From Maricaulis maris (GTDB lineage Bacteria; Pseudomonadota; Alphaproteobacteria; Caulobacterales; Maricaulaceae): a stretch of DNA of 64,000 bases. Positions within the stretch are counted from its first letter, which is position 1. Each line of letters opens with the position of its first letter. The position numbers and the translations under genes were made by a program. The stretch is taken from NCBI RefSeq assembly GCF_036322705.1, contig NZ_AP027270.1, forward strand, positions 2,543,501 to 2,607,500. The letters run 5' to 3'. Under the pieces are notes generated by a model. That model saw only the letters and a program-made list of their open reading frames with translations. It was not told the origin of the DNA and did no database searches. Shown here piece after piece: positions 5,574-30,282 of the stretch.

Positions 5574-5984
5574 CTATTCGGTAATCGGCAGGCAGTTGCA
5601 GGCGGCTGCGGACGTCCAGTCCAGCCGGATCCAGCAAAGCGCCGTCTCGCGATCATGAAATTGCCCGACCTTCCGGCCGAGCGAGTGGGCGACGGTGGCC
5701 ACGATCATCGACACGGTCTCCTGGTCCTCGGCGCGACCAACGAAGCCGAGCTTGGTGCCGGGAAGAAGGTCATCGACAAGGCCCTGGACGTTATCGATGA
5801 TTTCAACCGGCGGCGCCTCGATCGAGGCGTCTGTAATGTCGATAATGGCGCCGCGCACGGAATTGGCATTCGCCACCGCCTTCAACTCGAGACGGGATGC
5901 CCTGATTTCATCACCGCTGACGACGCCGATATGGATCAGGCAGGCTGCATGATTGGCGGGAACATGTGTGACGGTGAAAGTCAT
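5574..5984 (-). CDS. SpoIIAA/STAS-like small protein
   Basis: A 136-residue soluble protein with no signal peptide. The pattern of alternating strands and helices, a central RGAIIDITD strand-loop near residue 45, and the C-terminal DRETALCWI resemble the SpoIIAA-like/STAS family of small cytosolic proteins; this is recognition by pattern only. There are two Cys residues near the C-terminus (AAACNC). It lies 23 bp upstream of nothing obvious on its strand and is convergent with ahcY across the terminator at 5535-5566. No function can be assigned. Confidence 0.7.
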   Translation of the reverse strand: MTFTVTHVPANHAACLIHIGVVSGDEIRASRLELKAVANANSVRGAIIDITDASIEAPPVEIIDNVQGLVDDLLPGTKLGFVGRAEDQETVSMIVATVAHSLGRKVGQFHDRETALCWIRLDWTSAAACNCLPITE

Positions 5985-6007
5985 TGCGTGCCGGCTTGCT
6001 CCCCTGA

Positions 6008-6589
6008 TCAGGCTCGTTCATCCCGAAAATCGTACACTTCAGCATCCGTGACCAGCCCATCCAATGGCTCATCATGAGCTTGGGCGGGAAGCTCGGCAAC
6101 CATTTGACAATCGAAAGCCAGACCGATCGCGAGGATGGGGCCGGTCGCACGCAGAGCGGCCAGCGTGTAGTCATAATACCCTTTGCCGAAGCCAAGCCGG
6201 TTACCGGCCCGGTCGCAAGCAAGCAGCGGAACCAGGACCAGACCCGGGTGACACTCCGGCTGGCTTGAAAGCGGCTCGAAGACGCCCATGCCGCGCCGCT
6301 CCAGCGCGTCACCCTTCCGGTAGGCGCGGAATGTCAGCGGACGCCCCGGCCCCTCGACCACGGGAAGACACAGCCGGGCTCCACCGGTGACAAGACGCTC
6401 CATGAGCGGGCGGGGGTCGATTTCGCCGGCAAGCGGCCAGTAGCCGGCCACGACGCCACCGGGTGACGGCAGCCAATGGTCCGGAAATCGGGAGGCGAGC
6501 GCCCGCCCCGCATCCGGCGATACCAAGCCGGCTTCACGACGCCGCTCCAGCATGCGGGACCGCAGCGCGGGCTTGTCCGTGGAAATCAT
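6008..6589 (-). CDS. fau: 5-formyltetrahydrofolate cyclo-ligase
   Basis: Converts 5-formyl-THF to 5,10-methenyl-THF with ATP. The 193-residue protein has the family hallmark GFGKGYYD near residue 133 and the conserved PLLACDRAGNRLG just before it, plus a basic N-terminus (LRSRMLERRR) that lines the ATP site. It lies immediately downstream of a 6S RNA-like segment and zapA on the same strand, reproducing the zapA-ssrS-fau order known from many proteobacteria. The folate role also fits the metF/metH genes nearby. Confidence 0.93.
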   Translation of the reverse strand: MISTDKPALRSRMLERRREAGLVSPDAGRALASRFPDHWLPSPGGVVAGYWPLAGEIDPRPLMERLVTGGARLCLPVVEGPGRPLTFRAYRKGDALERRGMGVFEPLSSQPECHPGLVLVPLLACDRAGNRLGFGKGYYDYTLAALRATGPILAIGLAFDCQMVAELPAQAHDEPLDGLVTDAEVYDFRDERA

Positions 6590-6614
6590 GTGGCGGCTCC
6601 ACTCGCGCCGTTAG

Positions 6615-6775
6615 AGCGTGTATATCCCCACAAACCCGACTGTTCAGGTGGGCACCACTTGAACGGGACCAGGGTCCCAGACAGAGGCAGTTCCCTCGTG
6701 GAGGTGTACGGTCCGCAGGATAAACGCTCCAGTCGAACGCAGCAGATAACCGCCACCCCCTATGTGGGGCCGAAT
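6615..6775 (-). ncRNA. ssrS: 6S RNA (candidate)
   Basis: The 195-bp gap between zapA and fau holds a segment that folds as a long interrupted rod on the minus strand, as 6S RNA does. CCCCACA (complement of 6763-6769) pairs with TGTGGGG (complement of 6626-6632) as the closing stem. Inside it, CGACTG pairs with CAGTCG and GGACC with GGTCC, with an apical GAGGG/CCTC hairpin and a side hairpin GTTCAAGTGG/CCACCTGAAC on the 3' arm of the central bubble. 6S RNA mimics an open promoter and binds sigma-70 RNA polymerase. Ends are approximate; support is position plus hand-found pairings. Confidence 0.78.
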
Positions 6776-6785
6776 GGGCCGAAGC

Positions 6786-7211
6786 TCAAGCGTCGGCTTC
6801 GGCAAGTGCGTCATTCTGCGCAGACAGGATTTCATCGTCATCCGCATCGAGCTCACCGGTTTCCATCGCCCCGGCGAAACGCTCCATCCGGGCAGCCAGC
6901 CGGTTGAGCTGGTCGGTCAGACGCGTGCGGGCTTCGGCATGCAGGCTGGCGGCGCCGTGATTTTCGTGCCGCAGGCGTTGCAACTGGCCCTCGAGGCTCT
7001 CGATGCGACCGTCGGACTCCCGCAAATCGTCGACAAGAATGAGCGACGCCATCAGCAATAGCCGCAAATCACCGATCTGGCCGACCTGGCCCGAAATTTC
7101 CGAGACGCGCTTGTCGAGGCTTGCCGCGAGCTCGCGAAGATAAGCTTCCTGACCCTCTTCGCAACCGATGGTGAAGTCCCGACCATTGAGAGTGACGGTC
7201 ACGCGCGACAT
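6786..7211 (-). CDS. zapA: Cell division protein ZapA
   Basis: ZapA crosslinks FtsZ filaments at the division ring. The 141-residue protein starts SRVTVTLNGRDFTIGC, the ZapA N-terminal domain, followed by a long helical coiled-coil region (about residues 45-110) and an acidic tail. The open frame extends to 7241, but the ATG at 7209-7211 gives the family start. It begins 4 bp after the stop of the preceding DUF4164-like gene, a typical alphaproteobacterial pairing. Confidence 0.88.
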   Translation of the reverse strand: MSRVTVTLNGRDFTIGCEEGQEAYLRELAASLDKRVSEISGQVGQIGDLRLLLMASLILVDDLRESDGRIESLEGQLQRLRHENHGAASLHAEARTRLTDQLNRLAARMERFAGAMETGELDADDDEILSAQNDALAEADA

Positions 7212-7215
7212 CGGC

Positions 7216-7509
7216 TCAGTCCTCCCCACGGAGAAGATCACGGAGTTCGGTTATCGCGCCATCCAGCGCGTCTGACGCAAACTGTGCCGCCTCCTGCAAA
7301 GCGGCCTCGCGACCGCGCGCCTCGTCCAGCGCTTCGGCGAGGTGGGCGCGATCAACATCGGCGTCCCGTGCTTCGATCGCGGCAAGCTCGGCCCGCTTTA
7401 CCCGCGACCGCATGGACCGCGCTGCACCCTCCACGCGCGTCATGGCGCCGTCCAGCCGTGCGATCACAGCCTCCAGGGCATCTTCAGGCATATCCGGACG
7501 CACGTTCAT
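7216..7509 (-). CDS. DUF4164-like coiled-coil protein upstream of zapA
   Basis: About 97 residues, almost entirely helical and charged (residues 10-90 read as one coiled coil). It resembles the small DUF4164 proteins commonly found directly before zapA in alphaproteobacteria, and a division role is inferred only from that. The frame is open to 7653; the ATG at 7507-7509 is chosen because the family is short and the upstream extension looks non-coding. The start is uncertain: ATG 7491 is an alternative. Confidence 0.65.
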   Translation of the reverse strand: MNVRPDMPEDALEAVIARLDGAMTRVEGAARSMRSRVKRAELAAIEARDADVDRAHLAEALDEARGREAALQEAAQFASDALDGAITELRDLLRGED

Positions 7510-7724
7510 GCGCTGAGAATCAACTGTGTCGCGGCAAAGTTCAAGTTCTTGATCAACTTCATCCCCTGCGGCATTGAGTTCATATCCCTTCATGGCGGTG
7601 AAAAGGGGCCAAATCGAGGTGCCGCGGCCGGTCGGCCTGCCGCCGGGCATCATTTGACGCTTGTGTCCTGACAGTCCACAAGGTCAAAGCTTTACAGCGC
7701 TCGAACCAAAGGCGATTTCGACAG

Positions 7725-8312
7725 ATGCTTTCCCTTCCCGACTGGGCATTCTACCCGATCGCGACCGCAGCGGCTGCCGCCATGATTGCCGCGGCCATGA
7801 GCTTTGGGGACACCGATCACCGCACACCGGAGGAGATTCGCGCTGAGGGCCTGATCTATGAGGGCGAACGCCTGGCGGGGATGACACTGGGAAATGGTCT
7901 CACTATCGAATTCCTCACTGAGGACGGCTCGCAGTTTGCCCGCATTGCCGCAGCCCGCGGTCCCTTGGACGGCCTCCAGTCGGCGGGTGCGTTTTTCACG
8001 CTGTCACCAGACGAGATCGAAGCGTTTCAGGGGCACCGCCTGCGAGTGACTTACACACTCCGGGCAACCCCGGACCAGGGGGCTGAACAGACCCTCCTCA
8101 ATGTCTTCATACCCGGTCGGAGCCAGGCCGATTGGGAGAGCCAAGAAACCAGCGAAAACTATGAGAGCCTGACGATCGAACTCTTGCCCGCGCGCTGCGA
8201 ACTTGCCTTCGCCTATGTCAGCCTCTGGCCGGACTGGCGCGCACAGCGCAACCGGATCGACCTGCAGCGTGTCGAAATCACCGCGTTGGAACCCCTGCCC
8301 TGCGAAAGTTAG
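7725..8312 (+). CDS. Hypothetical membrane-anchored protein
   Basis: A 195-residue protein with one N-terminal membrane segment (about residues 8-27, alanine-rich) followed by a periplasmic-type domain of about 165 residues rich in beta-strand patterns. Two Cys residues near the C-terminus (ARCELAF and LPCES) could form a disulfide. It is probably an inner-membrane anchored periplasmic protein. It runs convergent with the glycosyltransferase gene and overlaps its stop by 4 bp. I do not recognise a family. Confidence 0.7.
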   Translation: MLSLPDWAFYPIATAAAAAMIAAAMSFGDTDHRTPEEIRAEGLIYEGERLAGMTLGNGLTIEFLTEDGSQFARIAAARGPLDGLQSAGAFFTLSPDEIEAFQGHRLRVTYTLRATPDQGAEQTLLNVFIPGRSQADWESQETSENYESLTIELLPARCELAFAYVSLWPDWRAQRNRIDLQRVEITALEPLPCES

Positions 8313-9310
8313 GGCTTCTGTCGACTCAGCAGGCGTACTTTCGCCCGCCGTGTCAGCAGGTCGATCGGGTTCCAGTTCATCATGCGGGCAATCGCTGACG
8401 GCGGAACCCGTCTCGCCTTCTGAACCTCAGCCCGTGTCAGGAATATATCCCTCCGGCCGGCCAGACCGTCTCCCAGGGCTCGCGCGAAAACACGCCCTTG
8501 ACCGAAGCGAAGTGACGATAACCAGAGCAGCCCGGTCACCAGAACATGGCCAGGAAGCAGCAACCAGAAAAGCCAGCCCGGGGTGTTCTTGAGGAAGACC
8601 CACAGCCGGTTGCGGACACCGTGATAGGTTGCGAATTCCGAACGTCGGCCGGAAGATCCATAGCCAACATGATCGACCGCCGCGCTGGCGAGCTGGATGA
8701 CCTGATAGCCCTGCAACCGGGCACGGTAGCCAAGGTCGACATCCTCATTGTAACAGAAAAAGCGCTCATCAAACCCGCCCAGGGCTTCATAGACGTCGCG
8801 CTTTATGAAGAGCGCCGCGCCGCAGGCTGCGAACACTTCGCCCTCGGGGAGCGACCGGGCAGGTCGCCCATAGCCGGAGCGATAGGCCAAGCCGAGCGCA
8901 TGGTAACAATCGCCTGTGCCATCCAGTGTATCGAGCTGATTGGCTACAAACTGGGTCGAGCCGAACATCGACGCCGCCGGATAAATCGTGCGGGCGCGGT
9001 CCAACTGCTCGATCCAGTCCGGGTGCGGATAGGCGTCAGGGTTCAGCAGCGCGAACCAGGCCCCCTTCGCGAGCGTCGCCAGATAATTGTTTCCACCGGC
9101 GAAACCAAGATTCTCGTCACTCTCCACCAGACGGACGCCCTCTGGCATATCGGCGGCCCGCACCCGCTGACCGTCGGGAGATCCGTTTTCCAGGACAATG
9201 ATCTCACGTGGTGCGAGGCTTTGCGCCGTCAGCGCTGCGAGACAGCCTGCAAGAGTGTCGACGCTCTTGTATGAGACAATGAGAACGGAGATGTCAGCGG
9301 TTTGAGGCAC
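8309..9310 (-). CDS. Family 2 glycosyltransferase (rhamnosyltransferase-like)
   Basis: A 333-residue GT-A fold enzyme. Residues 7-20 (ISVLIVSYKSVDTL) begin the nucleotide-sugar domain, ENLGFAGGNN near residue 67 and LLNPDA near residue 88 (DxD equivalent) line the donor site, and FFCYNEDVDLGYR near residue 183 carries the ED catalytic-base region. A hydrophobic segment around residues 245-265 suggests membrane association. This layout matches the WbbL-like rhamnosyl/galactofuranosyl transferases of surface polysaccharides. It stands alone, not in an operon; donor and acceptor cannot be read from sequence. Confidence 0.88.
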   Translation of the reverse strand: MPQTADISVLIVSYKSVDTLAGCLAALTAQSLAPREIIVLENGSPDGQRVRAADMPEGVRLVESDENLGFAGGNNYLATLAKGAWFALLNPDAYPHPDWIEQLDRARTIYPAASMFGSTQFVANQLDTLDGTGDCYHALGLAYRSGYGRPARSLPEGEVFAACGAALFIKRDVYEALGGFDERFFCYNEDVDLGYRARLQGYQVIQLASAAVDHVGYGSSGRRSEFATYHGVRNRLWVFLKNTPGWLFWLLLPGHVLVTGLLWLSSLRFGQGRVFARALGDGLAGRRDIFLTRAEVQKARRVPPSAIARMMNWNPIDLLTRRAKVRLLSRQKP

Positions 9311-9532
9311 GCGATTTCCCGGCTTCGATTGAGACGTGCTGCGTTGCAGCGCCTTTCATTTCCAGCAATAGCGGGTAGCATGCTTCCCGTCCGCCGCGAA
9401 CTGCTCGCGCACGTCCCATCATCATGACGACACCCCGTGCGGATGTCCGAAGCAGGCTTTCACGGGCAGATATGGCGCTGAGCGCGTTCTCCGGGCATGA
9501 CAGCGAATGAGTGAGGGCGTGGGGCAAAACGC

Positions 9533-10249
9533 ATGAGCACAATCCTGATTGATGCGGGACTGGTCCTGGGGCTGGGCGCGATCCTGTTGTCCGGTCGCCT
9601 GTCGACCGCCCGCGCCTTTGCGCTGTTTGCGGCCGCGACCATACTCACCGGGCGTATCGCCTTCGACGATGCCCTGGACCGCCTCACCACTCCGGCCATC
9701 CTGGCCGTGACCAGCCTCGTGATCATTGCATCGGCGCTGGCCAAACTGCCGGGTCTGAGCCGGACGGTGTTCGGCCGACCGGGGCGGGCGCCCCGCGTGA
9801 CGCTGGCGCGCTTCCTCGGCTCGGCCGCGCTGGCCTCCTCGGTCACGCCCAACACTGCTGTTGTCGCAGCTCTCCTTGGGTCCGCTGCGCGCCGACCAGA
9901 CATCTCGCCTCACCTCCTCCTGCTGCCACTGTCCTACATGGCCCTCGCCGGTGGCATGCTGACACCCTTTGGCACTTCGGCCAGCCTCATGGTGACGGGC
10001 GAGGCGGCACAATTCGGGGTCGATCTCTCGGTCTTTGACTTCGCCCTGCCCGGTGCCGCGGTCGCGATTGCCGTGTTCATAGTCCTCGTCGTGACGGCGC
10101 CTGTCATCCTGAAGGACCGCAAGACGCAAGAGACCGACACCAGCGGCATCTTCCATGTTGAAGCCCGGATCGATGACGACTCCCCGCTGAACGGCCGCAG
10201 CGTCGCCGCTGCCCATTATCACCCTTTTGTATCTGTGACCTGGATCTGA
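9533..10249 (+). pseudogene. Truncated SLC13/CitT-type permease
   Basis: The 238 codons encode the N-terminal half of an SLC13-family (ArsB/NhaD-superfamily) permease: about five membrane spans from residue 7 onward, the conserved SVTPNTAVVAALL motif near residue 103 and TPFGTSASLMVTGEA near residue 143. Residues 200-220 look like the start of a soluble TrkA-C (RCK) domain (ARIDDDSPLNGRSV), where the frame abruptly ends. Family members run to about 580 residues, so more than half is missing, and cysQ starts only 3 bp later. An internal deletion fits best. Position beside cysQ, cysNC and cysD suggests it was a sulfate permease; it is probably non-functional. Confidence 0.72.
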
Positions 10250-10252
10250 CCC

Positions 10253-11059
10253 ATGCCGAATCTCGACGACAAGAATGCAATAGCCTTCGAATTTGCCCGC
10301 ATATGCTCACTCGCTGCGGTCAAGATCATGGAAATCTATGAGAGTGATTTCGAAGCACGGGGTAAGGACGACAAGTCCCCGGTAACGGACGCGGACGAAC
10401 TGGCCGAGAAAATCATCCTTGCAGAACTCGAGGCCGCCCTGCCCGGCATTCCTGTCCTCGCAGAAGAGAGTTTTGCTGCCGGTTTCCGCCCCAAAACCGA
10501 TGGCGCCTTCATCCTCGTTGACCCTGTCGACGGCACCAAGGAATTCATCAACAAGAATGGCGAGTTCACAGTCAATATCGCGCTAATCGAAAATCGGGCG
10601 CCGACGGCGGGTTGCGTTTTCGCCCCGGCTCGCGAGCGAATCTTTGTCGGTGGAACGCACGCCTGGGCCGGCGCGCTGAAAGCCGGCGCACCGGTATCGG
10701 CCGACTCGCTTGATATGATCACGACACGCGACCGGCCTGCCGGGGGCATGACAGCCGTGATGAGCCGCTCGCACGCGGACGAAAAGACACGAGCCTTTGC
10801 CAACGCCCAAGGCGTGACGGAAACGGTTTCTGCGGGCTCGTCACTGAAATTCTGCCTGATCGCCGAAGGAACTGCGGACGTCTATCCACGCTTCGGGCCG
10901 ACCAAGGAGTGGGACACCGGCGCGGGTCACGCGGTTCTCAACGCCGCCGGCGGCGCGGTTCTGACACCGGACGGAGCGCCCTTCATCTACGCCAAGGAAG
11001 CCGTCGAATACCTCAATGGGGCATTCGTCGCCTGGGGCCGTATAGCTGGGGCCGTATAG
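10253..11059 (+). CDS. cysQ: 3'(2'),5'-bisphosphate nucleotidase CysQ
   Basis: Member of the inositol monophosphatase fold that dephosphorylates PAP, the by-product of PAPS-using sulfotransferases. The 268-residue protein has SPVTDADE near residue 42, AEES near residue 68, the metal-binding DPVDGTKEF near residue 86 and WDTGAGHA near residue 222. It begins 3 bp after the permease remnant and is convergent with cysNC. The last 25 bp contain a short direct repeat (GGGGCCGTATAG twice), a small slippage duplication at the C-terminus. CysQ is fitting in a genome with several sulfotransferases nearby. Confidence 0.9.
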   Translation: MPNLDDKNAIAFEFARICSLAAVKIMEIYESDFEARGKDDKSPVTDADELAEKIILAELEAALPGIPVLAEESFAAGFRPKTDGAFILVDPVDGTKEFINKNGEFTVNIALIENRAPTAGCVFAPARERIFVGGTHAWAGALKAGAPVSADSLDMITTRDRPAGGMTAVMSRSHADEKTRAFANAQGVTETVSAGSSLKFCLIAEGTADVYPRFGPTKEWDTGAGHAVLNAAGGAVLTPDGAPFIYAKEAVEYLNGAFVAWGRIAGAV

Positions 11060-11078
11060 ACTAACCCCATCTCGTGAC

Positions 11079-11101
11079 GGCGGCGCCCGGCCGGCGCCGC
11101 C
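11079..11101. terminator. Bidirectional hairpin between cysQ and cysNC
   Basis: GGCGGCGCC (11079-11087) and GGCGCCGCC (11093-11101) form a perfect 9-bp stem with a 5-base loop, in the 53-bp gap between two convergent genes. There is no T-run on either side, so efficiency is uncertain. Confidence 0.55.
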
Positions 11102-11112
11102 CTCGCCGAAAC

Positions 11113-13008
11113 CTAACCCAGACGTCCCATGCGTTTGAGCTCGGCGATCACCTTGTCGGCAGCATCCTCGGCGCTCAGATCGGCTGTCTTGATATGCAGC
11201 TCCGGCATCTCGGGCACTTCATAGGGGCTGTCGAAACCCGTGAAGTTCTTGATCTCACCCGCCTGGGCTTTCTTGTAGAGGCCCTTGGGATCCCGCTCGA
11301 TACAGACCTCAAGCGGCGCGTCGATGAAGACCTCAATGAACTCGCCATCCTCGACCAGCTCGCGCACCATTCGGCGTTCCGAACGGAAGGGCGAAATGAA
11401 GGAACACGTCACAATCAGGCCTGAATCGACAAACAGCTTCCCGACTTCACCGATGCGACGGACATTCTCAACTCGGTCCTCGTCAGTGAAGCCGAGATCC
11501 CGGTTCAAGCCGTGACGGATATTGTCACCATCCAGGGAATAGGTGTGGTGGCCTGCTTGCGACAGCTTGCGCTCAACCAGGTTGGCGACTGTCGATTTGC
11601 CAGCACCGGAAAGGCCGGTGAACCACAGGATGGCCGGCTTCTGCCCCTTGATCTGGGCCCGCGCTTCTTTCGTCACATCCATGGCGTGATGGTGGATGTT
11701 GGACGCCCGGCGCAGGCCGAACTCGATCATGCCGGCACCGACCGTCTGGTTGGTGAAGCGGTCGATCAGGATGAAGGCGCCCATGTCCCGGATCTGGTGA
11801 TAGGGATCGAAGGTGATCGGGCGGGCGGTCGACATGTTGCAAAAGCCGATCCCGTTCATCTCGAGCTTGCGGCTCGGCTTCTTCTCATAGGTATTGACAT
11901 CGACCCGGTGCTTGAGTGCCGACACGGTTGCCGGTGTCGTCGCAGTCCCGATCTTGAGCAGGTAGGAGCGGCCGGGCAGCAGGTCTTCCTCGGACATCCA
12001 GAGCAGCTTGGCAGCAAACTGATCAGTGACTTCAGGCCGCGCTTCGGCCGCCGCGATGATGTCGCCGCGCGAAATATCGATCTCATGATTGAGCACCAGC
12101 GTCACCGCGTCGCCGGCGACCGCCTCGGCCAAGTCACCGTCAGCGGTCACGATCCGCTCAACATTGGCAGCCTGTCCCGACTGCGCCACGACGATGGCAT
12201 CGCCCGGCTTTACGGCGCCGGCAACGATGGTTCCGGAGTAACCACGGAAATTCAGATTGGGGCGATTGACCCACTGAACCGGCATGCGGAACGGCTCGTT
12301 CTGGATCTCGCTGTTGATGTCGAGGCTTTCGAGATGTTCGATCAGAGTCGGCCCGGTATACCATTTCGTGTCATCACTACGCTTGGTGACATTGCCACCA
12401 TAGCGCGCAGACATCGGTATCGGGGTGATCGTCTCGAAACCCAGATCGTCAGCGCTCTTGAGATAACTCGCCACGATCTCGTGGAAGCGTCCGCGCGAAT
12501 GGTCGACCAGGTCCATCTTGTTCACAGCCAGCACGATGTGGCGGATTCCCATCATGCGCGCGATATAGGTGTGACGCAGGGTCTGAACTAGGACACCCTT
12601 GCGGGCGTCAATCATCATGACGGCGACGTCAGCCGTTGAGGCGCCGGTCGCCATGTTGCGGGTGTATTGCTCATGGCCGGGCGTGTCGGCGACGACGAAT
12701 TTGCGCTTCTCCGTCGCGAAGAACCGATAGGCGACATCAATCGTAATGCCCTGCTCGCGCTCAGCCTCGAGACCATCCAGAAGAAGCGCAAAATCGATCT
12801 CATCGCCCGCCGTGCCGTGCTTGCGGCTATCGCGCTCGAGCACATTGATCTGATCCTCGAACAACAGCTTGCTGTCATAGAGAAGGCGTCCGATGAGGGT
12901 CGACTTGCCGTCATCGACGGAACCGCAGGTCAGGAAGCGCAAAACACCCTGTCCGCCGGACTGGGTCAGCCGATCCATGACATTCGCGCGCGCATCTTGA
13001 GTATCCAT
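11113..13008 (-). CDS. cysNC: Bifunctional sulfate adenylyltransferase large subunit / APS kinase
   Basis: A CysN-CysC fusion of 631 residues. The N-terminal GTPase (residues 20-430) has GSVDDGKST (G1), DTPGHEQYT (G3) and NKMD (G4) and drives APS formation with CysD. The C-terminal APS kinase (about residues 440-631) has its own P-loop GLSGAGKS and phosphorylates APS to PAPS. The product is the sulfuryl donor for sulfotransferases; three such genes lie at 33-41 kb. Its ATG overlaps the cysD stop by one base (TGATG at 13006-13010). No cysH is visible, so in this window the pathway points to sulfation rather than reduction. Confidence 0.95.
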
Positions 13009-17176: not shown

Positions 17177-17723
17177 AAATTCGCCATTCCTGAATATGCT
17201 GAAGGGGAACTTCGACCGATAACTTGAGTGACACTTAAACTTCGACTCCCCAACGCTTTCAAGGGACAGTTACTGTTTCTTGGCTGCTCCTTGCTTGGGA
17301 CTCTGAAGCGCACCGAGTTGTCTAGGCTCAAAACCCAATCAGTCTATTGATAGGGTGCTGCAAATCATGATTCCAATGGCTTGAGGCTTTTGGAGGATGT
17401 TGGATGGCGCGCCTGTTTTGGCTGAGCGATGCGCAATGGGCGCTGATTGAACCGCATGTCCCGAGCAACCAGCCTGGCGCGCGGCGTGTCGATGACCGGC
17501 GTGTGATCTCGGGCATCCTCCATGTCCTGAAACCGGGCTGCCGATGGTGTGATTGCCCGGCGGAATACGGTCCCTCGACGACGATCTACAACCGGTTCAA
17601 TCGCTGGTCCCGCCGGCGCCTCTGGACCGATCTCGTGGAGGCTCTGGCGGTGTCCGGGGCGGTCACGAAATCGACCTCCATCGACAGCACTTACGTCAAG
17701 GCGCACCGCTCGGCCCACGGCGG

Positions 17724-17733
17724 AAAAGGGGGG
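17724..17733 (+). other. Likely programmed -1 frameshift site of the IS5 transposase
   Basis: AAAAGGGGGG lies where the first transposase frame (phase of 17404) must move back one base to the second (phase of 17553). Slippery A/G runs at this point are established in the IS427 group of IS5; function here is inferred. Confidence 0.65.
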
Positions 17734-18171
17734 CGAAAACTCAGGCGATCGGCCCTTCGCGCGGCGGACAGACGACCAAGGTCCACGCCCTCACAGACAC
17801 GCTCGGGCGGCCCTACGCCTTCGAACTGACGCCCGGCAATGTGGCGGACGTGAAAGCGGCGGGTCTCTTGCTGCACCGCGCCGCAGGCGCACGCTATCTC
17901 ATCGCCGACAAGGGCTATGACGCCAACGCGATCCGCAAGAGCCTGCGCCAGGCGGGAAAGGTCCCCGTCATCCCGGGCCGCTCCAATCGCAAGCGCAAGA
18001 TCGTCTATGACAAGGCCAGATACCGTGACCGCCACCTCGTCGAAAACGCCTTCTGCCGCATCAAGGACTTCAGGCGTGTCGCCACCCGATATGACAAACT
18101 CGCCAGAAACTTCCTCTTTGAACCGCCCCGGGTTTCCTGGAGGCTCCAACCTGTGAGAAGGAGGAGCCATC

Positions 18172-19400
<1,229 letters not shown>

Positions 19401-21586: not shown

Positions 21587-21587
21587 T

Positions 21588-21770
21588 TGACCCAGCCCCG
21601 AGAGCTGCTGCCGCGATGGAGGCATGACTATAACCACCACCGGCCTCACTCATCCCTGGGCGGGCTGGCGCCCGCAGCGTGCCGGTCGCTCGAGCTAAGC
21701 AGGGGCTCCGCTCCCGGCACCCTCGCCAGATCGCAAACCGTGGACTATCAAAGCATCAGACTCTCAAAAT
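21588..21770 (+). pseudogene. Remnant of an IS3-family OrfB (C-terminal 60 codons)
   Basis: The frame reads PRELLPRWRHDYNHHRPHSS LGGLAPA, the end of the rve-type transposase of IS3 relatives, with no upstream catalytic core. It abuts the stop of the glycosyltransferase at 21586, so only the 3' end of an old element remains. It marks a former insertion or deletion boundary between the glycosyltransferases and the acyltransferase. Confidence 0.75.
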
Positions 21771-21938
21771 AAACGAGGGAGCCGAAGGGCTCAGGTCAGG
21801 GGCGATATAAATTCGGTTACACCTTCAATCGTCGCTCGTCACGGGCAACGACGGTGTCCAAGATGGAAATGAAATCGAGCGCGCAGTTTCGCTATAAGAA
21901 TGTCGAATTCGTTAGACAAATAAATACAAGGCCCATCA

Positions 21939-24510: not shown

Positions 24511-24583
24511 GTAACCGTCCGGCCAACCCGCCCTACCGATGACGCTGGGCCTGTCTTACGCTCAGTTTCGCTGAGCGTAAGAC
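24511..24583. mobile_element. IS66 left-end relic
   Basis: These 73 bp match the left end of the complete IS66 at 27747-27819: 27 identical terminal bp, a 13-bp divergent block, then an identical 33-bp stretch containing a 13-bp-stem hairpin (24553-24583). No transposase coding sequence remains. The divergent block shows it came from a related but different copy. Confidence 0.88.
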
Positions 24584-24593
24584 GTAAGACCGC

Positions 24594-25283
24594 ATGTCCT
24601 TTCCAACCAGCTGCAGCCTTATCGAACGCGTCCGCAACTCGCTGATCAATGCGCAAGGCGTGCTTCAGGATATCGCGCGTCAGCGGCTGGAACGCGAACG
24701 CCAGTTGAGTGAAGTACGCCACCAGGTAACCCAGTTGCCTACCCGGCGCGATCTCGAACTGTCCCGGGCGCGAGACAGCGTAACGGCACTGGAGCAGGCC
24801 CGGCGCGATCTCGAACGCGCAGCCGGGTACACGATTTCCGCCCCGATCGCCGGCCGCGTGACGTCCGTCCAGGCCTCGATCGGGCTGGCAGTCCGACCCG
24901 AGCTGCCATTGGCCGCCTTGGTGCCGGAGGGTGAGGTCCTGCGGGCCCACCTCCTGGTGCCGACCAGCGCGGCGGGATTCGTCGAACCCGGCCAGGCCGT
25001 CCGGTTGCGGATCGATGCGTTCAACTACCAGCGTTTTGGAACGGTGGAGGGCCACGTGGCCGACCTTTCAACCTCGGCCCTGTCTCCGAGCGAGCTCGCC
25101 GCGCCGATCTCCGTCCAGGCACCGGTTTATCGGCTCAGCGTGGATCTCGCCCGGCAGAGTGTCTCGGCCTATGGCTCCTCCCAGCCGCTCCAGCCCGGCA
25201 TGACGCTAAGCGCCGATGTGATCGTGGACGAACGTCCGCTGTGGCGATGGGTAATGGACCCGGTGCTAGCGGTGCGAAACTAG
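24594..25283 (+). pseudogene. HlyD-family membrane fusion protein, 3' part only
   Basis: A 229-codon open frame encoding the second half of a periplasmic adaptor for ABC-type peptide/protein export. Residues 10-80 are the returning coiled-coil arm; YTISAPIAGRVTSVQ near residue 81 is the biotinyl-lipoyl half-motif; residues 110-220 are the beta-barrel domain ending in the near-membrane WVMDP. Family members are about 400 residues with an N-terminal membrane helix, which is missing: the frame begins 10 bp after the IS66 relic. It therefore looks cut off by the IS66 end. The type resembles adaptors of bacteriocin-like exporters (RaxA/CvaA class), matching the double-glycine peptide at 26441-26731. 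Confidence 0.8.
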
Positions 25284-25484
25284 CGAAGCTTCGGATGTCG
25301 AGCAGATTGCAATTCCGGCGGCGCCGCCTCAGTGCTCTTCGAAACGAGCTGACAACGTGCGCGAGGAGAAAGCCCGCCTGTCCCTGATCGGTCACAATGA
25401 TTTTGAAGAGCGTTTCCGGTACACTGCAACATACATAGTATCCTCTTCGTCAAAGATCGTGACCAAGGGATTTTTCTTGTGCCA

Positions 25485-26363
25485 CTAATCAGCCTCTTCA
25501 ACACATAGACCTATCGTCGAGCGAGCGATTTTCTCTCCTTCTAGGATGACTTGGCTGTCAGGCAACGGATGTCGGAGATTCATACCGCCTACGAACGACC
25601 ACTGCGCTACCATGCGATCCGGCAATGTTTCATCGTAGAGCTGGACGGTTGCTTGTTCATGATCGTCGCCACGCCATCGTTGGAGCGTTTCGGCTAAAGG
25701 CAACCAGTACTGGTGAGTACTCTCGAACGCTGTACGTCCGTTCGCGACCAATGATATGACACCATCGTTGATCGCTCCGGCACAAATTGGCTCCACTAGA
25801 GCGGTGCTTTCTAAATGAAATCTCCACGGGATTGTCGCCGCCAATTGAAAACTTCTCTCGAACTCTGCTCCGACATCTGCGACAGCCCGATGCTCTGCCT
25901 GCGCCCACTCAGCGGTGCGCCGAATGAGCTCCAGCCGATATCCTAATGTGGAGTGAGCAACGAAGATCGCTCGCTCGCGGAGCACCGCTTTGTTCGCTCC
26001 TACGTAAAGCTCGACGCACGCCGAGATGCATATGCCGTCGAACGCCACCGCAATGGCTTTACTATTGATCTGCTCAACTATCGTATTGATCAGAATGCCA
26101 TCACCGCCCGTACTTCTGACAGTGAGGAACTCAAGCTCACCTGGTTCAAGCGAAACTAGGAAGTCGCTTGCAGTGCGCCCAAGGACACCACAGAGCATGC
26201 CCTCCTGGCCGGATTGCCAGATCTGGGGTGGGCTTGCTCGAGGGTCACATTCTGCATCGTGTTGCGATGGCAGTAGAGCAGTGAATTCCTCTGCAGCGGG
26301 AGTATCACATCCCCAACAAAACACTGCAGAAATAATGATCCAAAATCGGGCCATGGAAGGCAT
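25485..26363 (-). CDS. Predicted exported ClpP-like protein (COG3904-like)
   Basis: About 292 residues. The N-terminus MPSMARFWIIISAVFCWGC is a signal sequence, possibly a lipoprotein signal with the Cys at residue 19, though the box is imperfect. The core STGGDGILINTIVEQI (near residue 83), then FDGICISACVELYVGANKAV and FVAHSTLGYR, follows the pattern of ClpP/crotonase-fold predicted periplasmic proteases: a GG strand-loop, a Ser in the S-A-C turn, and a His about 30 residues later. Catalysis is unproven. The start is uncertain (ATG 26363 or 26354; a GTG at 26399 is also open). It lies downstream of the double-glycine peptide gene and probably in its transcript, so it could be a processing, immunity or companion factor. 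Confidence 0.68.
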   Translation of the reverse strand: MPSMARFWIIISAVFCWGCDTPAAEEFTALLPSQHDAECDPRASPPQIWQSGQEGMLCGVLGRTASDFLVSLEPGELEFLTVRSTGGDGILINTIVEQINSKAIAVAFDGICISACVELYVGANKAVLRERAIFVAHSTLGYRLELIRRTAEWAQAEHRAVADVGAEFERSFQLAATIPWRFHLESTALVEPICAGAINDGVISLVANGRTAFESTHQYWLPLAETLQRWRGDDHEQATVQLYDETLPDRMVAQWSFVGGMNLRHPLPDSQVILEGEKIARSTIGLCVEEAD

Positions 26364-26380
26364 TATCACATCAATTTGGA

Positions 26381-26411
26381 AGCGGGCGCCGCGTGTCACG
26401 CGGCGCCCGCT
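26381..26411 (-). terminator. Strong hairpin between the peptide gene and the ClpP-like gene
   Basis: AGCGGGCGCCGCG (26381-26393) and CGCGGCGCCCGCT (26399-26411) form a perfect 13-bp stem with a 5-base loop, 30 bp after the peptide stop. There is no T-run, so partial termination or 3'-end protection giving more peptide mRNA than downstream mRNA is plausible. Confidence 0.6.
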
Positions 26412-26440
26412 CAGATTTCAGCAGAAACACCAGTCGAGGA

Positions 26441-26731
26441 CTAGTTTCCTTCGGTCTCGTTATCACGTGCGTGCATACAAATGCCTGCGGTTATCGCGGG
26501 ATCGCCGCCCAGCGCGGTGAGAATAGCGCAGGCTGTAATAGCAGTTAACCCGCCTTCATCATTGTCCCCTTGACCCCCACCAATTTCCGGCTCGATAAGA
26601 TCCCGATTGTCCTCAATCGGAGGAAACGGCCCCGGATTGTCTGGGTCGGGTCCATCGGGATTGTCGGGCGGATTACCATCGTAATATCCACCAGCCACGT
26701 AGTCCATTTCCGCTACGGTCAGTACACGCAT
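26441..26731 (-). CDS. Double-glycine-leader secreted peptide (bacteriocin/microcin-like), unrecognised family
   Basis: A 96-residue precursor. The first 15 residues, MRVLTVAEMDYVAGG, match the double-glycine leader consensus at every key place: Leu -12, Glu -8, hydrophobic -7, Val -4, Gly -2 and -1. Such leaders are cut by C39-peptidase ABC exporters. The 81-residue mature part has an acidic Asp/Asn/Pro/Gly-rich half (YYDGNPPDNPDGPDPDNPG) and a hydrophobic Gly/Ala half with two Cys (TACAIL and GICMH), suggesting a membrane-active or disulfide-linked peptide. AAGGAGG stands 7 bases before the ATG. No exporter ATPase is present, but a HlyD-type adaptor fragment lies 1.2 kb away. Target and activity are unknown. 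Confidence 0.75.
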   Translation of the reverse strand: MRVLTVAEMDYVAGGYYDGNPPDNPDGPDPDNPGPFPPIEDNRDLIEPEIGGGQGDNDEGGLTAITACAILTALGGDPAITAGICMHARDNETEGN

Positions 26732-26959
26732 AGGGTCCTCCTTTTAAGCATGCCATCTCAGACTGCCGCTTAGGTTGTTTCGTGTCCAGAAAAAATCGAG
26801 AGAATATTGCTTCCGCCGATTCAAGGAGAGCGCTTCCGTGGCGAAATGGTTTCATTCACAACTACTGGTCATTGGGCAAGCGTTGCAGCAGCTTGCCGTC
26901 AGTTACAATCGACTAGGGCCGTGGCCAGACGCTAATGAGCCGGGACGAGCTGGCCCTCC

Positions 26960-27746
26960 AAAACCGTCCGGTGAACCCGCCCTGCCGGTGAAGAGCGGCC
27001 TCGCCTACGCTCAGGCTCGCTGAGCGTAGGTCCAGGGCAGGAGGTCGTCGAGAAGGGTGATTTTGGTGTCGGCGATGCGGGCGAGCACGTCGGTGAGCCA
27101 GGCCTGGGGATCGACGCCGTTGAGTTTGGCGGTCTCGATCAGGGTGTAGAGGCAAGCTGCTGCGTGGCCGCCCTTCATCGAGCCGGCGAACAGAAAGTTC
27201 TTGCGGCCCAGGGCGACCGGGCGCATGGCGCGCTCGGCAGCGTTGTTGTCCAGTTCCGTGACGCCATGCGCCAGCCACGGCTCAAGCCGCTTCATGCGCG
27301 TGAGGGCATAGCGGATCGCCGCGGCGAGAGGCGTCTTACCGGATATCCGGGTCAGTTGGGTCGCGAGCCAGGTGTCGAACGCCTCGAAGATCGGCCGCGA
27401 CCGGGCCTGTCTCACCGCGGCGCGCTCGTCCAGCGGCTTGCCGCGGATGGCCTTCTCGATGGCGTAGAGCCGGGCGATGCGCTGGATGGCCTCTTCGGCG
27501 ATCGCCGAGCCGGAGGCCTTGTGCACGTCGACGAACTTGCGCCGGATATGCGCCATGCAGGCGACTTCGGTAATCTCGCCGGTGTCGTAGAGCGCGTTGA
27601 ATCCGGCATAGCCGTCGGCATGCATGAAGCCTCTATATCCCGCCAGGTGCTCGACCGGGTGCTCGCCCTTCCTGTCCGGGGTGAAGCGATAATAGGCCGC
27701 CGGCGGCGCCTCACCGGCCCAGGCCCGCTCGTCGCGCACATAGGTC
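26960..27746 (-). mobile_element. Truncated IS66-family element (copy 1)
   Basis: The left end is degenerate: AAAACCGTCCGGTGAACCC from 26960, with the terminal GT replaced. It runs through the 3' part of a tnpC until cut by the left end of IS66 copy 2 at 27747. The missing half is not on the far side of copy 2, so a deletion or recombination followed the insertion. Confidence 0.82.
27011..27746 (-). pseudogene. IS66 TnpC transposase, C-terminal fragment
   Basis: Codes for the last 245 or so residues of TnpC: YVRDERAWAGEAPP, HADGYAGFNALY, CMAHIRRKFVDV, NNAAERAMRPVALGRKNFLF and the AWLTDVLARIADTK tail. It is about 80% identical by eye to the matching part of the complete TnpC at 27798-29369. 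The N-terminal half is absent, so it is not a functional transposase. Confidence 0.87.
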
Positions 27747-27797
27747 GTAACCGTCCGGCCAACCCGCCCTACCAGGGGCGACGCACCTGTCTTACGC

Positions 27798-29369
27798 TCA
27801 GTTTCGCTGAGCGTAAGACCAGGGCATGAGGTCTTCAAGGCGAGTGATCTTGGTGTCGGCGATGTTGGCGAGGACATCGGTGAGCCAGGATTGCGGATCG
27901 ACATCGTTGAGCTTGGCTGTCTCGATGAGGGTATAGGCGATCGCCGCGGACTTACCGCCGCTGGGCGAGCCGACGAAGAGGTAGTTCTTTCGCCCGACCG
28001 CCAGGGGTCGGATGGCGCGCTCCGCGGTATTATTATCGAGCTCGGTGACGCCGTGGTGGAGCCAGGGTTCCAGCTTTTTCATCCGCGTGAGACCATAGCG
28101 GATCGCTGCGGCAAGAGGCGTCTTGCCGGATATCCGGGTGAGCTGGGTCTGCAGCCAGGCGTCGAGGTCCTCGAACACGGGTCTTGATCGGGCCTGGCGT
28201 ACCGCGGCGCGTTCGTCCGGCGGTTTGCCGCGGATCGCCTTTTCGATCGCATAAAGCCGGGCAATGCGTTCAACCGCCTCCTGGGCGATGGCCGAGCCGG
28301 ACACCGTTTGCACATCCACGAACTTACGCCGGATATGGGCCATGCAGGCCACCTCGGTGATCTGGCCGGTGTCGTAGAGCCGGTTGAACCCGGCATAGCC
28401 ATCGGCATGCATGAACCCGCGATAGCCGGCCAGATGATCGGCAGGATGTTCGCCCTTGCGATCTGTTGAGAAGCGATAATGGGCCGCGGGCGGGGCACTG
28501 CCCGACCAGCCGTGCTCATCACGGACATACGCCCACATGCGGGCGGTGGCGGTGCGCCCCTTGCCCGGAGCGAGCATCTTCATGGGGGTATCATCGGCGA
28601 AGATGGCCTGGCCCTGGCGGACATGGCGCCCGATGGCTTCGGCCAGCGGTTCCAGCAGCCGCGCGGACTGTCCCACCCATCCGGCCAGGGTGGAGCGTTC
28701 CAGCTCGATGCCTTCGCGGGCATAGATCTGGCTCTGGCGGTAAAGCGGCAGGTGATCGCCATACTTGGAGATGAGGACATGCGCCAGGAGCCCCGGTCCG
28801 GGACGGCCCTTCTCGATGGGGCGTGAAGGCAGTGGGGCCTGGTGCATGCGCTCGCAGCACGTGCACGCCATGCGCGGGCGTTTGATGCGGTTCACAACAA
28901 AGCGCCCCGGTACGTATTCCAGTTCTTCGGTTATATCCTCGCCCAGCGGCTTGAGCCCGCCGCCGCAGGATAGACAGGCCTCGCCGGGCGAGAGGATCTC
29001 GTCATGACGCGGCAGGTGATCGGGCAAGGACTTGCGGCTGGGCTTGGCCGGTTCGTGCGCCTGCGCTGACCCGGTCTCGACTTCGGTCCCAACCGCTGGT
29101 GCCTCAGCGGCCTCGGCGATCTCCTCGTCCTCCAGCCGCATCTCAAGCTGATCGAGGCGTTCCGAGCGGGAACCGAACTGGTGGCGGCGCAGTCCGGCCA
29201 GTTGATGCTTGAGCTTCTCGATGAGAAGATCGCGATTATAGAGCTCGCGCTCGAGCATACCGACCGCGCCCTTGAGGGCGTCGATGTCATCGGGAAGCTG
29301 GCTTGGCGCGGTGATCATGGGCTCAACATCTATCTGAGCCGCAGCGTGATGTGAATCGAAAATCGGCAA
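27798..29369 (-). CDS. tnpC: IS66-family transposase TnpC
   Basis: A 523-residue DDE transposase. N-terminal coiled coil (about residues 25-75, ALKGAVGMLERELYNRDLLI), the LRRHQFGSRSERLDQLE box, a zinc-finger-like CLSCGGGLKPLG plus CTCCERM region near 135-190, and the catalytic core with FADDTPMKML, HADGYAGFNRLY, CMAHIRRKF and NNTAERAIRPLAVGRKNYLF. Full length and apparently intact. The stop codon lies inside the subterminal hairpin at 27789-27819. ATG 29318 is an alternative start. Confidence 0.93.
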   Translation of the reverse strand: MPIFDSHHAAAQIDVEPMITAPSQLPDDIDALKGAVGMLERELYNRDLLIEKLKHQLAGLRRHQFGSRSERLDQLEMRLEDEEIAEAAEAPAVGTEVETGSAQAHEPAKPSRKSLPDHLPRHDEILSPGEACLSCGGGLKPLGEDITEELEYVPGRFVVNRIKRPRMACTCCERMHQAPLPSRPIEKGRPGPGLLAHVLISKYGDHLPLYRQSQIYAREGIELERSTLAGWVGQSARLLEPLAEAIGRHVRQGQAIFADDTPMKMLAPGKGRTATARMWAYVRDEHGWSGSAPPAAHYRFSTDRKGEHPADHLAGYRGFMHADGYAGFNRLYDTGQITEVACMAHIRRKFVDVQTVSGSAIAQEAVERIARLYAIEKAIRGKPPDERAAVRQARSRPVFEDLDAWLQTQLTRISGKTPLAAAIRYGLTRMKKLEPWLHHGVTELDNNTAERAIRPLAVGRKNYLFVGSPSGGKSAAIAYTLIETAKLNDVDPQSWLTDVLANIADTKITRLEDLMPWSYAQRN

Positions 29370-29416
29370 TTTAGTACAATAAATACAATGATATGCGTCT
29401 ATACTTTATAGACACT

Positions 29417-29764
29417 TCAACCCGCCACCAAGGGCCTCCAGGTGTGCTGCGGCATGCGCCAGTCGATGCCCTCCAGCAACATCGCTAGCTGCGCCCGGCC
29501 GAGCGCCACCTTGCCGTCGGCCGCAGACGGCCAGACAAACCGCCCCCGCTCCAGCCGCTTGGAGAAGAGGCACGCCCCCTGGCCATCCCACCAGATGATC
29601 TTCACCAGATCACCGCGCCGGCCCCGGAAGATGAAGATCTGACCGGAATGAGGATCTTCGCTGAGCTTACTCTCGGCCAGTGCGGCCAGCCCGTTAAACC
29701 CCTTGCGCATATCCGTCACCCCGCCAGCCAGCCAGACCCGCGTCTCGGCAGGAACCGGGATCAT
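29417..29764 (-). CDS. tnpB: IS66 accessory protein TnpB
   Basis: A 115-residue IS66 Orf2 protein: [20 protein letters not shown] at the N-terminus, [32 protein letters not shown] near residue 42 and [13 protein letters not shown] near residue 68, all family hallmarks. Needed with TnpA and TnpC for transposition in studied members. It overlaps tnpA by 4 bp. Confidence 0.94.
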
Positions 29765-30168
29765 GCTGCTGCTCCGATCGCCCGGATCACCCGCGTCAGC
29801 GCGGCTTCTTCGACATGGCTCTCAACGCGTAGCCGCGTACCGCACACCAGCGCGATCTCGATCGGGCTGGGCGATGCAGGTGGATCAGTGGCCGGCAAAG
29901 TCGCATCAGTGCGAGACCCCATGGCGATGGGCGCAAAGGCTTCGGTCCCGATCTCAACCGGCAGGAAGACCGGCTCGGCTTCAGGCAAGGCGCCCTCGGC
30001 CAGGCTCGGGTTAAAGCGCGGATCGCGGCGCCAGGTACTGATCAGGTTGGCGTTCATGTCGTGACGCCGCGCCACACCAGCGATCGACATGCCGACTTCG
30101 AAACTCTCCGCCACGATCGCCCGCTTCTCTTCCAGGCTCCAATACCGGCGCCCCGTAACTCCCGCCAT
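29761..30168 (-). CDS. tnpA: IS66 accessory protein TnpA
   Basis: A 135-residue IS3/IS911-type helix-turn-helix protein: [18 protein letters not shown] then [20 protein letters not shown] form the HTH in residues 6-50, followed by a variable acidic/proline linker. It is the first gene of the IS66 operon, starting 114 bp inside the right end. Confidence 0.92.
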
Positions 30169-30282
30169 GTCCCTCTCCGATAATGCCCACGATGAACGCT
30201 AGTGGGCACTACCACCCGACCGCGAGCCCATAGACTCGCGATACCGGAAATCTAGACAAGGGCGGGTTCACCGAACGCTTAC

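Follow-up and report, generated by a model that had tools for sequence, protein, structure and literature searches.

A 96-amino-acid reading frame in Maricaulis maris opens with a short leader that ends in two glycines, and it stands beside a fragment of an export adaptor and a gene for a ClpP-like protein. What is this peptide, how would it leave the cell, and why does a protease-like gene accompany it? The locus was analyzed within a stretch of 64,000 nucleotides (the window). Apart from Cdz, double-glycine peptides of Alphaproteobacteria have received little attention, and a preliminary description had suggested that the locus might be an undescribed bacteriocin or signaling system. Most likely, the data below reflect an exported, microcin-like peptide that is partnered by an envelope protease; the activity of both is putative.

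Results

The precursor is a genuine double-glycine peptide

The 15-residue leader, MRVLTVAEMDYVAGG, had been said to fit the double-glycine consensus, and all six listed positions of this minus-strand reading frame (26731–26441) agree with it: Leu at −12, Glu at −8, Met at −7, Val at −4, and Gly at −2 and −1. The strong ribosome-binding sequence reported ahead of the start is also present, 5 bases before the ATG (Table 1). The account of the 81-residue mature part, acidic and rich in Asp, Asn, Pro and Gly and then hydrophobic with two cysteines, likewise held; its net charge is −15, and these four amino acids make up 52% of it. Single-sequence AlphaFold modeling placed helices at residues 64–73 and 78–93, with low confidence (pLDDT 57). 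Pfam, NCBIfam, PHROGs and PADLOC were all empty for the peptide, in line with the earlier statement that it has no recognizable family, and searches of plasmid and viral contigs returned no relative of either the peptide or its ClpP-like partner. Weak peptide matches in other genera were dropped because they look like low-complexity D/P/G stretches, with the exception of those in G047 and in the G002 remnant described below.

Leaders were sought with a start-codon-anchored pattern, and the reversed pattern served as the control. The complete 3,142,398-bp genome of the window contains two sites, against none for the control. A slightly stricter pattern found 17 sites in 15 of 398 genomes of the order, with no control site in any genome listed, and across 289 genomes of the class it was the window's own genome and one other that matched. 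The leader pattern therefore occurs more often than expected by chance. Coding evidence came from a second Maricaulis genome (G002), in which the peptide is truncated to a remnant, its last 23 codons. Differences between the window and G002 over these C-terminal codons number 3, 4 and 16 at codon positions 1, 2 and 3, respectively, which indicates that the window peptide is a selected protein, conserved at the protein level.

The second leader-pattern site of the window genome belongs to another double-glycine system (L023, G000:C1:1044000-1063900, positions 5862–11894), with an acidic 129-aa peptide that adjoins HlyD and the only C39 exporter of the genome. It also encodes a 727-aa exported protein with, by eye, a prolyl-oligopeptidase-like fold and a degenerate nucleophile motif (no Pfam match), and its peptide is followed by a long perfect stem-loop (z −7.7).

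Table 1. Features of the peptide locus (window coordinates) and loci at which a double-glycine peptide is paired with a ClpP-like gene
Feature	Position	Strand	Details
IS66-type end remnant	24511–24583		Borders the break in hlyD
HlyD/CvaA-type adaptor remnant	24622–25283	+	Residues 194–412 of the intact 412-aa protein
Block common to the window and G006	24622–27746		3,125 bp, 99.97% identity
ClpP-like exported protein	25485–26363	−	ATG at 26363, alternative GTG at 26399; SxGGD, CxSxC and His motifs
GC-rich stem-loop 3' of the peptide stop, ahead of the ClpP-like gene	26379–26412	−	No U tract; z −5.0
Double-glycine peptide gene, 96 aa	26441–26731	−	Single copy in genome; identical in G006
Mature part, 81 aa	26444–26686	−	Acidic D/N/P/G-rich, then hydrophobic with Cys68 and Cys85
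15-residue leader	26687–26731	−	Predicted C39 cleavage after Gly15; from sequence and pattern statistics
Shine-Dalgarno AAGGAGG	26737–26743	−	From sequence; 5 bases 5' of ATG
Truncated IS66 transposase (tnpC)	27011–27746	−	Forms the right-hand edge of the block
Second, more complete IS66 element	27749–30282	−	Beside the block
Pair locus, G000/G006			Window, L024
Pair locus, G010			L039
Pair locus, G047			L026
Pair locus, G055			L042
Pair locus, G180			L084
Pair loci, G245 (two)			L092; once behind two 60-aa peptides, four Cys each
Pair loci, G217 (two)			L093, L099; each with two ClpP-like genes in tandem
Pair locus, G176			L127; three peptides around the ClpP-like gene
Pair locus, G099			L128
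Pair locus, G029			L130; two peptides
Pair locus, G373			L146; peptide and partner genes overlap by 4 bp, downstream of an HlyD remnant

The exporter is intact in a relative and destroyed in the window

The HlyD-type adaptor fragment noted earlier beside the peptide is real (PF13437, E 4e-11). No ABC transporter gene is present at the window locus, and the only C39 domain in the genome is that of the L023 system, 1.5 Mb away. A Maricaulis metagenome-assembled genome (G006, NZ_CAJQOO010000158.1) carries a peptide and a ClpP-like partner identical to those of the window. After them come a complete HlyD adaptor of 412 aa and, oriented divergently from it, a C39-peptidase ABC transporter of 728 aa, whose sequence on visual inspection contains the probable Cys, His and Asp of the C39 site. 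The proposed export context is supported, as a C39 ABC transporter and HlyD lie beside the identical peptide in G006, with the correction that the exporter is destroyed in the window genome.

The block common to the two genomes is far more similar than a syntenic 2.9-kb chromosomal stretch with a glmS-like gene, which is 72% identical, so either the block moved recently or the G006 contig (C158) is mis-binned; on either account, there is an intact arrangement. The HlyD sequence of the window picks up only at residue 194, shortly after an IS66 end, so that residues 1–193, with the membrane anchor, are missing. With its exporter destroyed, the window copy is either a mobile relic or dependent on the other C39 exporter 1.5 Mb away. 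From these sequences we infer that it moved recently and is the relic, now without an exporter, of a type I (C39-peptidase) system for peptide export.

Whether the locus still works in the window genome is a separate question from what the system does, and the odds appear even that it is non-functional debris, its genes being passengers on an IS66-bounded, exporter-less fragment that will decay. The loss of the HlyD anchor and the assignment of the sole C39 domain to another system fit decay, and the block is so close to its source that the move is too recent for selection to be visible. Against this, the reading frames, ribosome site and hairpin are all intact, and the second C39 exporter, with an ABC transporter 39% identical, could serve in trans. 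An IS mosaic surrounds the locus (window 17404–19400, 21587–21772 and 27011–30282), consisting by eye of IS5-, IS3- and IS66-like elements and remnants, and stands between glycosyltransferase and acyltransferase genes.

The partner has a ClpP-like fold and a conserved catalytic site

The gene directly 3' of the peptide gene encodes a product of about 290 aa (304 aa if read from the GTG) with a probable signal sequence that ends at a cysteine and resembles a lipobox. The protein has no match in Pfam, NCBIfam, PHROGs or PADLOC. Its AlphaFold model, made with 13 aligned relatives, has a pLDDT of 86.4, and in the VIA structure comparison the matches listed are ClpP proteins (best Z 9.9, with an rmsd of 4.8 over 154 residues), which bears out the ClpP-like exported neighbor claimed in the preliminary description. 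The first rows from Foldseek are enoyl-CoA hydratases, members of the same superfamily, with poor TM-scores, whereas VIA ranked ClpP first.

Profile alignment placed the serine of the CxSAC motif and a conserved histidine on the catalytic Ser and His of ClpP, and SxGG on the SPGG of ClpP. G59, S84, G86, G87, C112, S114, C116 and H137 (numbered from the ATG at 26363) are invariant in 12 of 12 aligned sequences, all of them linked to a whole double-glycine peptide except that of the G002 remnant locus, and the catalytic Ser, His and GG oxyanion residues are also invariant in the 13-sequence alignment. The other partners are only 14–25% identical to that of the window, except the one in G002 (54%), and the differences between the G002 and window genes are mostly at third codon positions. 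As modeled, the partner is a protein of the ClpP/crotonase fold that keeps the catalytic Ser, His and oxyanion residues; its peptidase activity is a prediction.

The protein resembles ClpP and the COG3904-type periplasmic ClpP-like proteins in its ClpP-crotonase fold, its GG oxyanion motif, and a Ser and His in register, but it is exported, carries the CxSxC cysteines and a C-terminal extension, and has no evident ATPase partner. The two cysteines (window 26016–26030) lie two residues either side of the presumed catalytic serine, and every aligned member has them; it would be unusual for a disulfide to span the nucleophile. Origin from a phage head protease was considered and rejected; among the members scanned, only that of G047 touches phage protease families, and no phage genes were seen nearby.

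The pair recurs, with and without an adjoining exporter

A ClpP-like gene directly after a double-glycine peptide, on the same strand, was found at 13 loci in 12 genomes from two families of the order (Table 1), and G002 has a remnant of the pair only. These loci were found partly by the leader pattern and partly by the ClpP-like profile. Among the best 14 profile matches that were neither part of the profile nor chosen by a peptide, 4 lie directly behind a double-glycine peptide, a kind of gene of which each genome has a few at most; no such peptide was found near the other 10. Generic ClpP-like matches from the class-wide search had no double-glycine peptide among their neighbors in the loci scanned.

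C39 or HlyD adjoins the pair at L024, L026, L042, L092 (HlyD) and L146 (HlyD remnant). The full set of peptide, ClpP-like protein, HlyD and C39 transporter occurs in another family as well (G047 and G055). For the remaining pair loci among the genomes scanned, a C39 exporter lies elsewhere or none was found; no C39 domain was found in G010 or G180, both drafts that are 94% complete. C39 exporters and COG3904-like genes had been expected to recur, and both did, the former in G006 and the latter at the 13 pair loci. The refuting outcomes, homologs that lack the GG motif or that are never near export genes, were not seen. The pair recurs although the window peptide and its partner match no named family, and it is apparently undescribed: no account of such a pair was found in the open-access literature searched.

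Some paired peptides are tiny and rich in cysteine (L092, 2185–2564; L084, 1769–1882), with four cysteines in 41–45 residues and three in 22 residues, respectively, and look like disulfide-bonded secreted peptides. In G217, two different ClpP-like genes stand in tandem behind a single double-glycine peptide at both loci (L093, 10358–11925; L099, 3856–5894). Multi-helix membrane proteins that look CPBP-like by eye lie directly behind other double-glycine peptides (L085, 10757–11449; L091, 10212–10739); Pfam left this CPBP/CAAX-like identity unconfirmed, and it was given no weight.

Peptide and partner diverge together around a conserved exporter

Between G006 (L024) and G047/G055, the exporter ABC proteins are 48% identical and the HlyD proteins 35%, against 19–21% for the ClpP-like proteins; the mature peptides of L024 and L026 have no evident similarity and are not alignable beyond the leader. 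These comparisons suggest that the peptide and its ClpP-like partner change in concert around an exporter that is kept.

The stem-loop that follows the peptide gene is also a wider feature. In this position, a first set of 19 peptides has a mean folding z of −2.9 (p about 1e-6) and a second set of 16 a mean of −2.7, compared with −0.6 for 188 other genes from these loci. Several loci whose peptide and partner genes touch or overlap have a weak stem-loop or none (the second pair of L092, and L146). Its probable role is to stabilize the peptide portion of the message or to curb read-through, which would yield much peptide and little partner.

Discussion

Immunity by the ClpP-like partner is the preferred explanation

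We hypothesize that the window carries the relic of a C39 export system for a microcin-like peptide, with a ClpP-fold envelope partner that confers immunity by destroying or neutralizing returning peptide (probability roughly 0.4). In this scheme, a C39 exporter would cut after Gly15, the 81-residue acidic peptide would leave via HlyD and a TolC-like channel, and it would act on neighboring cells as a microcin-like bacteriocin. The ClpP-fold protein would remain in the envelope, either lipid-anchored or free in the periplasm, and would use Ser126 and His149 (numbering of the 304-aa reading frame) to destroy or neutralize the peptide on its return to the producer. A more specific version, that of a class of exported double-glycine peptides from Caulobacterales-type bacteria in which an envelope-anchored ClpP-fold serine protease directly behind the peptide gives immunity by proteolysis and toxin and protease co-diversify around a conserved C39 exporter, is advanced a little more tentatively.

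Immunity by proteolysis is our first choice, and maturation its main rival. Three points favor immunity: the partner occupies the usual place of an immunity gene, changes along with the peptide, and persists on its own in G002. That genome has an intact ClpP-like gene but only a truncated peptide and no longer any C39 exporter, as for an orphan immunity gene, an argument that rests on one genome. Several observations count against this reading. The mature peptide is strongly acidic; other members of the broad ClpP-like group stand where no double-glycine peptide was found nearby; the drafts G010 and G180 yielded no C39 domain; and, to our knowledge, microcin immunity proteins have not been described as ClpP-like. 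Confirmed ones have 51–216 aa and tend to be inner-membrane proteins (PMC9746304).

Maturation is as compatible with the retained catalytic site as immunity is. The ClpP-like protein could be a second processing protease that, after C39 removes the leader, trims a long acidic precursor in the envelope to an active fragment. The conservation of the Ser/His/oxyanion site in partners as dissimilar as those described above agrees with this, long D/N/P/G-rich stretches resemble spacers, and a single ClpP-like gene that adjoins two or three different peptides (L092, L127 and L130) would suit a processing enzyme. Some partnered peptides, however, are very short from the outset (that of L084 has 22 residues beyond its leader), two loci have two ClpP-like genes behind one peptide, and G002 keeps the enzyme with neither an intact peptide nor an exporter. 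We regard this explanation as less likely than immunity.

Cell-cell signaling, in which the peptide is a pheromone that the ClpP-like envelope protein senses, degrades or relays, is improbable. Double-glycine peptides with C39 exporters do also act as signals in Gram-positive bacteria (PMC6363468, PMC10986499), the peptides are diverse, and that of the window lacks the zipper of Cdz-type toxins; but the neighborhoods read showed no recurrent gene for a histidine kinase, receptor or regulator. Least probable is a role in cell structure or at the surface, for example as an adhesive or amyloid-like component of the envelope that C39 exports, with a ClpP-like quality-control protease, since the window peptide has no glycine zipper and the peptides of different loci have no evident sequence in common apart from the leader, which would be unusual for a structural subunit, even though several partnered peptides are long (111–140 aa) and acidic or Gly/Pro-rich and C39 proteins have also been linked to amyloid export (PMC5557850).

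With immunity as the preferred reading, the pair is a testable candidate case of an exported ClpP-fold protease that protects against a bacteriocin, a mechanism of which the papers searched gave no description, and it offers a first possible role for some orphan COG3904-type envelope proteins. The recurring pair is also a genomic handle for finding such peptides without sequence similarity.

Relation to known export systems

Class II microcins of the microcin V type are encoded with a set of a precursor, an immunity protein, a C39 ABC transporter, a membrane fusion protein and TolC. The present system resembles them in its 15-residue double-glycine leader, in the C39 ABC and HlyD genes that adjoin the pair in G006 and G047, and in a variable core and partner with a conserved exporter (PMC9746304). 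It differs in that the partner is an exported ClpP-fold protein of roughly 250–300 aa rather than an immunity protein of the size and typical inner-membrane location given above (PMC9746304), and in that the window HlyD is truncated and the ABC transporter absent. The small, about 3.4-kb, horizontally acquired nap island of Neisseria gonorrhoeae also encodes double-glycine peptides, but these are cationic, are accompanied by a C39 peptidase and a FapF-like channel, and promote autolysis; it has no ClpP-like partner (PMC11798529).

The window system shares with Cdz of Caulobacter crescentus, from the same order, small proteins with a leader ending in G[G/A/S], a type I exporter, and transposases that often flank the locus (PMC5380434). 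At 96 aa with a GG ending, the window peptide falls within the Cdz leader definition (ending in G[GAS], 60–151 residues; PMC5380434). The glycine-zipper motif GxxxGxxx[GAS] was looked for in the mature part and is absent, and no three-helix membrane immunity gene like CdzI was seen in the 3.1-kb block, which has the ClpP-like partner instead. Because zipper and CdzI are both absent, identification as a Cdz contact-dependent bacteriocin was rejected.

Protease-linked self-protection has a precedent in the CAAX/Abi-type proteases found at bacteriocin loci. The likeness is that of a protease-like gene in a bacteriocin cluster; those enzymes are intramembrane metalloproteases, whereas the window partner is predicted to be an exported serine hydrolase.

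Other loci of the same order carry small, Cdz-like, Gly/Ala-rich double-glycine peptides beside C39 exporters (L106, 5657–5884; L107, 6577–8076; L110, 8726–8995). None of the three has an adjoining ClpP-like gene, and L107 contains a clear glycine zipper.
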